Below, in pieces: positions 47,624 to 49,155 of a stretch of DNA of 56,854 nt. Both the position numbers and the translations under genes were made by a program. The stretch is taken from positions 1 through 56,854 of the forward strand of contig DAIDHM010000127.1 in the NCBI GenBank assembly GCA_027459705.1, given 5' to 3'. The notes beneath the pieces are model-generated. The model did no database searches. It saw only the letters and a program-made list of their open reading frames with translations, and was not told the origin of the DNA. Origin of the DNA: Ktedonobacteria bacterium (GTDB taxonomy: Bacteria; Chloroflexota; Ktedonobacteria; Ktedonobacterales; JACDGC01). Numbering within the stretch: the first letter of the stretch is position 1; every line of letters begins with the position of its first letter.

Positions 47624-48091
47624 TCAGGCTCCTCTCCCGATGCTCAGGGCATCGGATGCCATACTTTTGGCGGTATTTACCGCGGTGACGTTGGCCTGAT
47701 AGGCGCGGCTTGCCCCCATCATGTCAGAGATCTCGGTGACGAGGTTAACGTTGGGATAGACAACGTACCCATTGGCGTTGGCCTGCGGGCTGGTCGGCTC
47801 ATAGACGAGGCGGCCCGGGGTCGTGTCATTGGCAATGGTACTGACCTGGACGCCAAGGGGCAGAGCTTGCGCGTAGCCGCCACCAGCTTGCGGCGTGGGC
47901 GGCGTGGGCGGCGTGAATGGGTTCTGGGTCGGATCCCAGGTCTGGAAGATGACCGCCTCGCGTTGATACGGCCCGCCTTGCGCGGTCTGCGTCGTATTGA
48001 CATTCGCGATGTTATTCGAGATAGTGTCCATACGAGTCTGCTCGGCGGTTAATCCAGACCAACTGGTGAAGAGCGAGGTAAAAAAACTCAT
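47624..48091 (-). CDS. flgC: Flagellar basal-body rod protein FlgC
   Basis: 155 residues from ATG 48091 (AAAGGAG 11 bases upstream). LFTSWSGLTAEQTRMDTISNNIANVNTTQTAQGGPYQREAVIFQT at the start and GYVVYPNVNLVTEISDMMGASRAYQANVTAVNTAKSMASDALSIG at the end are the FlgC pattern. First gene of the flagellar operon; the middle has an unusual TPPTPPTPQAGGG stretch. Two bases separate it from fliE. Confidence 0.94.
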   Translation of the reverse strand: MSFFTSLFTSWSGLTAEQTRMDTISNNIANVNTTQTAQGGPYQREAVIFQTWDPTQNPFTPPTPPTPQAGGGYAQALPLGVQVSTIANDTTPGRLVYEPTSPQANANGYVVYPNVNLVTEISDMMGASRAYQANVTAVNTAKSMASDALSIGRGA

Positions 48092-48403
48092 AGATCCGCT
48101 GACTCCTTTCTGTGTGGGGTGCGTGACATCTGGGTGGCCCGTCCGGTGCCAGTGCCAGTGCAGGCAGACGATGTATAGCAAAAGTGGCATGGCGTCCCGT
48201 TGGCGCATCGGCAATCTGCCACGCGCCGCGAGCGCGAACGGAGATCCTTCTCCACTTGGGGGTTCGCGCTCGCGTATTCACAGGTGCAGGTGTAGCATAC
48301 CCTCAATGCCCACCCTCTCTAAAGGGGCGAATGTCCCCAGCTCCTTTCCCGGATATCCCTCTGGCAGGATTCTCATACTGCCCAGAGGGATATCCGGCGG
48401 CCC
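48092..48403. other. Upstream region of the flagellar operon
   Basis: 312 bp. It holds a repeat-like block at 48132-48150 (GGGTGGCCCGTCCGGTGCC) and the hairpin 48349-48397. It may hold the flagellar promoter; I cannot place one. Confidence 0.5.
48349..48397 (-). terminator. Hairpin between the aspS fragment and flgC
   Basis: A 16-bp perfect stem (CCGGATATCCCTCTGG, 48349-48364, with 48382-48397) that can extend past one bulged base. It starts seven bases after the fragment's stop; no T-run follows on the minus strand, so termination strength is uncertain. Confidence 0.6.
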
Positions 48404-48775
48404 CTATGGCGTTAGCCGATGCAGGTCGCGCGGAAACGTCGCCGCGAGCTTGACGCTGGGTAATCCGATCAGTTGCGCCAGCAGGCGCTCCAGACCGATC
48501 GCGAAGCCACCATGCGGCGGCATGCCATATTTGAAGGCATCGAGATACCAGGCAAGGGGTTCCGCAGGCATGCCAGCCCGCGCAAGCGCCTCGCGATACG
48601 CCGCATACGTATGGAGACGTTGGCCACCAGTCACCAATTCCAGGCCTCTAAAGAGCAGATCGAACGAATTGGAAGCCGGGTGGCCCGGTGCCTGCGACGC
48701 GGGTCCGCGTGCTGGGAAGATCCGGGAGGCGCCCACGCGAACCCGCACGATCAGGTTCAGGCGCGCTCCCGGCAA
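48404..48775 (-). pseudogene. C-terminal fragment of an aspartyl/asparaginyl-tRNA synthetase
   Basis: The open frame gives 123 residues, of which about 95 from SNSFDLLFRGLELVTGGQRL to PPHGGFAIGLERLLAQLIGLPSVKLAATFPRDLHRLTP are an unmistakable end of a class II AspRS/AsnRS, including motif 3 (GGFAIGLERL). A complete enzyme has about 430 residues; the anticodon-binding domain and motifs 1 and 2 are missing. Only about 60 bases lie between this frame and the T-box terminator, so the 5' part of the gene has been lost. A repeat copy (48675-48692, reading APGHPA) lies right at the junction where homology starts, suggesting the deletion or rearrangement involved it. Unlikely to be active. Confidence 0.85.
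48675..48692. repeat. 18-bp repeat copy at the truncation point of the aspS fragment
   Basis: GCCGGGTGGCCCGGTGCC, the G6/C10 compensated form of the repeat. Confidence 0.9.
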
Positions 48776-48833
48776 TCGTCACCGTCGTCCATCTGCATCC
48801 TCCGTAGCCCGGCACATAGCCATGCGCGGCCAT

Positions 48834-49110
48834 AAAAAAACCCTCGCCTCCGCTGGGAGGACGAGGGTTGCTCGTGGTGCCACCTCTTGTATTCCGTCGA
48901 CGCGCCGACACACGCCTCGGACTTAGCCGACCCACAAGAATGGGGGCCGAAGCGCGCTAACGGGCGCACCCGAGTCTGGCAGCGCGGCGCGGTGGGCCGC
49001 GCGCTTCCAGCTGGCTCCGAGCTGTCCTGTCGGAGGGGAAAGGCGACGGTTGCAGCAAGTGCGTCGCTCTCTAGACATTCCCCGGCCGAACCCGGCTCAT
49101 CGTCACCATA
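48834..49110 (-). promoter_or_regulatory. T-box riboswitch leader (tRNA-sensing), probably for aspartyl-tRNA
   Basis: On the minus strand: AGAGAGCGACG followed by TTGCTGCAACCGTCGC (stem I type AGAGAG...GCUG element), candidate specifier triplet GAC (49024-49026) just before GCTCGGAGC, the T-box motif GAGGTGGCACCACGAG (48871-48886), and a terminator with stem CCCTCG-CCTCC / GGAGG-CGAGGG ending in TTTTTTT (48834-48868). The T-box bulge is TGGC, whose C would pair with discriminator G73, as in tRNA-Asp and tRNA-Asn. Downstream is an AspRS fragment, consistent with GAC. The T-box identity is clear; the specifier placement is tentative. Confidence 0.88.
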
Positions 49111-49126
49111 TCGCTGGTATGTCGCA

Positions 49127-49155
49127 ATGATACCATGCTTCCCTGTATAAATCAA
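49127..49155 (-). promoter_or_regulatory. Predicted promoter of the T-box leader
   Basis: TTGATT (49155-49150) and TATCAT (49132-49127) with a 17-base spacer, directly upstream of the T-box leader. Confidence 0.65.

Follow-up and report, generated by a model that had tools for sequence, protein, structure and literature searches.

We identified, in a window of 56,854 nucleotides (the whole stretch of Ktedonobacteria DNA analysed here), a locus that is probably a decayed version of a regulatory unit with two stages, still intact in related genomes, and that abuts the flagellar operon rather than driving it. Across the order Ktedonobacterales, the leader of aspS2, an archaeal-type aspartyl-tRNA synthetase (AspRS) gene, appears usually to be double, with a T-box followed by a short open reading frame (ORF) rich in Asp and Asn codons and accompanied by crossing helices. 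Our confidence is evenly divided over a scheme for Ktedonobacterales aspS2 in which the T-box would read tRNA-Asp at transcription and a ribosome-gated pseudoknot would read Asp/Asn codons at translation initiation. We judge that the window locus reveals a new form of tandem sensing of tRNA charging, at transcription and at translation. Its elements are as follows.

49127..49155, minus strand: promoter-like site TTGATT-N17-TATCAT, a consensus match only
48854..49112, minus strand: T-box riboswitch RF00230 (32.1 bits, E=4e-5, full model 1-219; 1.1-kb search)
from 49072, minus strand: AGAGAG bulge, read from the sequence
49024..49026, minus strand: specifier codon GAC (Asp), then A; GAC-A holds the same position in the aspS2 T-boxes of relatives
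48871..48886, minus strand: T-box sequence GAGGUGGCACCACGAG, which includes the UGGC bulge
48834..48867, minus strand: intrinsic terminator CCCTCGTCCTCC-CAGC-GGAGGCGAGGG-T7, with U-tract
48757..48792, minus strand: leader ORF MDDGDDCRERA and stop, with Shine-Dalgarno GGAGG at 48803-48799; matched by model R1, trained without the window
48760..48772, minus strand: 5' strand of helix P1, formed by the final leader-ORF codons; P1 covaries in relatives
48734..48747, minus strand: 5' strand of helix P2, from the crossing set of 22 leaders
48722..48734, minus strand: 3' strand of P1, with the same covariation in relatives
48698..48711, minus strand: 3' strand of P2, which crosses P1
48685..48697, minus strand: deletion junction; Shine-Dalgarno, start and ~345 aspS2 codons absent, aspS2 homology starting at ~48690
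48404..48688, minus strand: C-terminal ~90 codons of aspS2 (archaeal-type AspRS), without a Shine-Dalgarno or start of their own
48349..48397, minus strand: long perfect hairpin without a T-run (-36.9 kcal/mol, single copy in the genome)
48294..48336, minus strand: conserved flgC promoter-like element GGACATTCGCCCCT-N22-GTATGCT, downstream of the aspS2 remnant and of the 48397-48349 hairpin
47624..48091, minus strand: flgC, which opens the flagellar cluster (TIGR01395, 146 bits)

A sequence-only reading of this DNA had described a promoter, a T-box motif, a UGGC bulge and a U-rich terminator, and each was recovered (TTGATT-N17-TATCAT, RF00230 at E=4e-5, the T7 terminator); two promoter-like sites were seen in the region against 0.5 expected. 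The covariance-model search it had proposed covered the full RF00230 model at 32.1 bits, and the specifier, read as GAC (Asp), agrees with the type of the downstream gene. On a reading of the sequence, the antiterminator pairing is present and the UGGC within AGGUGGCACC (48885-48876, minus strand) could pair with a G73 tRNA; a probe search for the genome's own tRNA-Asp returned other tRNAs only. All parts of the T-box are in place and signs of decay are absent. It looks intact and Asp-specific, and tRNA-dependent antitermination is predicted. The elements that had been listed for this interval thus stood, while the leader ORF and the two crossing helices (48792-48698) had been overlooked.

The window T-box scores under the Rfam gathering score for RF00230 (93), and a scan at that threshold was silent over the window, where the T-box would stay hidden. 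The source genome holds 14 T-boxes above noise, all below 93 (32-90 bits), and those detected upstream of intact aspS2 in relatives likewise fall short of it (39-63 bits). T-boxes of Ktedonobacterales are probably under-annotated, since their scores fall below this cut-off. Cognate leader peptides were sought behind the other 13 T-boxes of the source genome, and none was convincing. At one of these loci (L016, G000 contig C102), a short ORF led by a Shine-Dalgarno, MLQVGTRQEVSPRRFTTGGQTQR, carries four Thr codons ~84 nt past the T-box motif; the gene there is a probable member of the homoserine/threonine pathway, and the locus is a faint candidate for a second tandem case.

What follows the leader is the end of a gene. 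The ORF at 48404-48775 (minus strand) matches NF003483, aspartate--tRNA(Asn) ligase, with E=1e-37 over profile columns 348-438 of 438, and the earlier description of a beheaded AspRS holds, with ~90 codons left where ~100 had been given. The match is to a fragment only, at 130 bits against a curated cut-off of 353 for full-length NF003483 / TIGR00458. The identity as an aspartyl-tRNA synthetase stands and the type needed correction: by its sequence, the remnant is that of an archaeal-type, non-discriminating AspRS (aspS2), not of the ordinary bacterial enzyme. Its reading frame is still open, and whole aspS2 in relatives of the order (~435 aa) is 66-80% identical to it over the shared part. 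With the end of P2 at 48698 and the first AspRS homology at ~48690, the window has lost the Shine-Dalgarno, the start, ~345 codons and the 3' strand of a third helix, P3, and has kept the T-box, the leader ORF, P1 and P2. A deletion of ~1.1 kb in the source genome, running from just after P2 to aspS2 codon ~345, would have left the leader without a gene to serve.

A relic is the likeliest reading of the locus. Against it stands the absence of decay in the T-box, since decay would be expected in an old relic. The undecayed leader implies that the loss is recent, that it is an artefact, or that the leader is kept for another use, and we rank these in that order of likelihood. An artefact, in which the organism keeps a full aspS2 at this place and ~1.1 kb was lost in assembly through a repeat or strain variant, is unlikely, although several observations speak for it. 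The assembly is fragmented (245 contigs, 95% complete), and the remnant is both open and well matched to relatives, at the 66-80% identity given above. The only other AspRS gene of the assembly, a bacterial-type aspS (G000 contig C16, 21440-22762, locus L013), is full-length apart from one in-frame TAG; with both genes damaged, at least one would be expected to be intact in the living organism. Either the aspS2 deletion or the aspS TAG may therefore be an artefact of assembly or strain. The TAG stands at a variable site, where relatives have T, N or V, and may reflect sequencing error, strain variation or real damage. The search for a full-length aspS elsewhere, suggested earlier together with a check for its own T-box, thus found the bacterial-type gene and detected no T-box there, and the gene is interrupted by that TAG; no AsnRS was found in the source genome. 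Against an artefact at the window locus, the missing part of aspS2 lies on no other contig (the 344 residues, used as a query against the whole assembly, returned paralogous synthetases only), and the junction sits inside a 57-kb contig. Moreover, aspS2 is absent altogether from two other genomes of the same family, which makes the gene dispensable. We infer a genuine deletion in the organism itself.

Favouring the relic over a functional link to flgC, relatives hold the same T-box and a full aspS2 at other loci, away from flgC. The motif GTGGTGGYACCACGA was present in 31 of 47 genomes of the order (32 sites), and 29 of the 30 sites examined could be traced into the aspS2 reading frame, the exception being L166. 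At this last site (G022 contig C254, 9988), the genome has the GTGGTGGCACCACGA T-box motif for a second time, not obviously ahead of aspS2.

When the stretch from the terminator to the fragment was used as a DNA query, a conserved piece was found just 5' of aspS2 in two relatives (G002 and G004). Behind the T-box terminator, relatives carry short ORFs, for example MTSDDDDDGWERA, MNDDDDDDGWKRA, MDNDGDDNDREEDT and MESDDGNDDDDNNTINILGST, whose stops lie ~80-150 nt from the aspS2 start. Over 25 relatives and the window, Asp accounts for 31% and Asn for 12% of 387 codons, with GAC (74) and GAT (47) both in use for Asp. In 23 of the 26 leaders this richness exceeds that of at least 197 of 200 dinucleotide shuffles treated by the same choice rule; Asp codons are few in three. 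The Asn codons make sense because the enzyme family is described, by its name, as charging tRNA-Asn too. Six T-box leaders of the order have no leader ORF, so the second stage is not essential. The leader ORF is presumably translated.

The final codons of this ORF pair, as P1, with a strand 23-53 nt downstream. In an alignment of 19 sequences with the window left out, 91.4% of P1 cells are paired, with 25 two-sided changes; no shuffle of 500 reached this level, and slid partners gave 44-57%. P3, often present, joins the region of the leader stop to the stretch around the aspS2 Shine-Dalgarno and takes in the Shine-Dalgarno itself in several leaders (e.g. G002, G014, G018). In strand-swap tests whose windows were anchored at the ORF stop and the gene start, P1 and P3 each gave 0/20000. 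P2 begins inside the loop of P1, immediately ahead of the latter's 3' strand, and extends past it. The P2 strands diverge between genomes while complementarity is kept, at -28.4 kcal/mol for own pairs versus -19.6 (sd 0.9) for swapped pairs (0/20000). In all three swap tests the windows were set without reference to the helix tested, those for P2 coming from P1 alone. All 22 leaders of a set with hand-picked strands, the window among them, show P2 crossing P1; four leaders (L183-L186) have the leader ORF and lack a clear P2.

A covariance model trained without the window (R1) found 48719-48807 as the best match of the source genome, at 30.2 bits, the next reaching 18.6. At 34 bits or more, it otherwise gave one match per genome, all in aspS2-type leaders, and those in G018, G022 and G041 came from outside its training set. 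No Rfam family besides the T-box matched the leader stretch convincingly.

The helices have the features of an H-type pseudoknot, in that they cross and are supported by covariation, for P1 from counts and for P2 from the strand swap. From these sequences, a pseudoknot is as possible as two mutually exclusive helices. It is quite doubtful that the structure acts alone, in mRNA stability, ribosome pausing or ligand binding, beside an Asp-rich ORF that is incidental. The strands of P1 and P2 lie next to each other and hardly overlap (gap -2 to +5), a coaxial H-type geometry rather than one of strictly competing helices, and this suits such a role; however, the Asp/Asn richness goes far beyond that of shuffles, and the leader amino acids match both the gene and the T-box specifier.

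In the two-stage scheme that we prefer, uncharged tRNA-Asp would bind the T-box of an intact unit and block transcription termination, and the read-through mRNA would offer the ribosome a short ORF full of Asp, and often also Asn, codons. Progress over this ORF would require charged tRNA-Asp and tRNA-Asn, and the ribosome presumably stalls when they run short. The leader ribosome would then decide whether the 3' end of the ORF pairs in P1 or whether P2 and P3, the latter reaching the aspS2 Shine-Dalgarno, are left to form. Translation of aspS2 would in this way be gated by the same signal as its transcription; the direction of this second switch is proposed from starvation logic only, and modelling lends it no support, as the computed accessibility of the Shine-Dalgarno was alike in the P1-formed and P1-blocked states (Wilcoxon p=0.81).

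The leader points toward flgC and, as had been noted, only a hairpin without a T-run follows the remnant (the 48397-48349 stem, -36.9 kcal/mol). As a repeat element this hairpin was ruled out, being a single copy in the genome; as an ancestral aspS2 terminator it has no equivalent behind aspS2 in three relatives. A U-tract terminator was sought between the remnant and flgC, and none was found, so that with a T-box that looks intact, read-through into flgC is possible. The proposal that such read-through places the flagellar genes under the T-box found no support. A flgC element is common to five genomes of the family (GGACATT(C/T)GCCCCT-N22-TAT-like, always 43 bases), in a single copy per genome that always lies at flgC (in G003, two overlapping readings make up one site); its position and conservation suggest a promoter, and the flagellar genes appear to be under their own control. 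aspS2 stands beside flgC in 0/4 relatives (G001, G003, G004, G005), where other genes precede flgC. The plain relic that had been offered as the alternative is accordingly favoured, and the flagellar reading has nothing positive in its support, read-through being possible but unsupported. Capture of an orphaned T-box by the flagellar operon, with Asp starvation adding transcription of flgC and the genes downstream, is very improbable: its T-box, specifier, antiterminator and terminator are all intact, and the relic and flgC share a strand with no U-tract terminator between them, but the conserved flgC element lies downstream of the relic, the arrangement occurs in no relative examined, and two hairpins, one of them that of -36.9 kcal/mol, stand in between. 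A locus that merely adjoins the flagellar operon presumably leaves flgC unaffected.

The flgC motif, GGACATTYGCCCCT-N22-TAT, is unlike the sigma-70 consensus. The second strong hairpin (48274-48227, CGCGAGCGCGAAC...GTTCGCGCTCGCG) lies in the long flgC 5' UTR and is missing from relatives, whose flgC UTR is much shorter.

As a T-box, the window leader is ordinary for the RF00230 class, sharing a Stem I with AGAGAG bulge and specifier, the T-box bulge and the antiterminator/terminator; what sets it apart is only that the downstream gene is lost, and the window offers a natural case in which a leader outlived its gene. A 2008 survey (PMC2494555) covered two Chloroflexi, in which it listed no T-boxes other than ile and trp ones, and noted that AsnRS is missing from Chloroflexi. 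Open-access literature returned no paper joining T-box, leader peptide and AspRS, and none joining T-box and Ktedonobacter; this silence is weak evidence, the rtpA tandem discussed below being equally silent there.

Like the his and trp attenuators, the aspS2 leader has a short ORF in which codons for the regulated amino acid abound, and alternative RNA helices come after it. It differs from them in adding a T-box of the same specificity, in helices that cross and have adjacent strands, and in having no U-tract terminator past the helices in the leaders read by eye. Leader-peptide attenuators include forms that sequester the ribosome-binding site (PMC9413887).

The nearest parallel is the Bacillus subtilis at operon (rtpA, anti-TRAP), where Chen and Yanofsky (2003, 2004, referenced in PMC11255114 and PMC4027176) described a T-box combined with a Trp leader peptide. 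In both, as proposed for aspS2, a T-box responding to uncharged tRNA acts on transcription, and a short ORF behind it, with many codons for that amino acid, acts on translation of the next gene. The rtpA leader stop reportedly adjoins the rtpA Shine-Dalgarno, which a terminating ribosome blocks, whereas in aspS2 leaders the stop is not beside the Shine-Dalgarno of the next gene, and ~80-150 nt with crossing helices intervene. The aspS2 unit further differs in using Asp/Asn instead of Trp, in serving an aminoacyl-tRNA synthetase rather than a regulator, and in belonging to another phylum. To our knowledge, tandem sensing of tRNA charging, at transcription and then at translation, is known from one Bacillus operon; if the two-stage sensor is true, no earlier tandem of this kind on a synthetase gene would be known, as far as found. 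Cultured relatives make the unit testable, among them Ktedonobacter robiniae and Dictyobacter aurantiacus, in which it is intact (loci L067, L068). An independent version of the rtpA arrangement, in another phylum, on a synthetase serving two tRNAs and with a conserved switch of crossing helices, would show this design to be recurrent.
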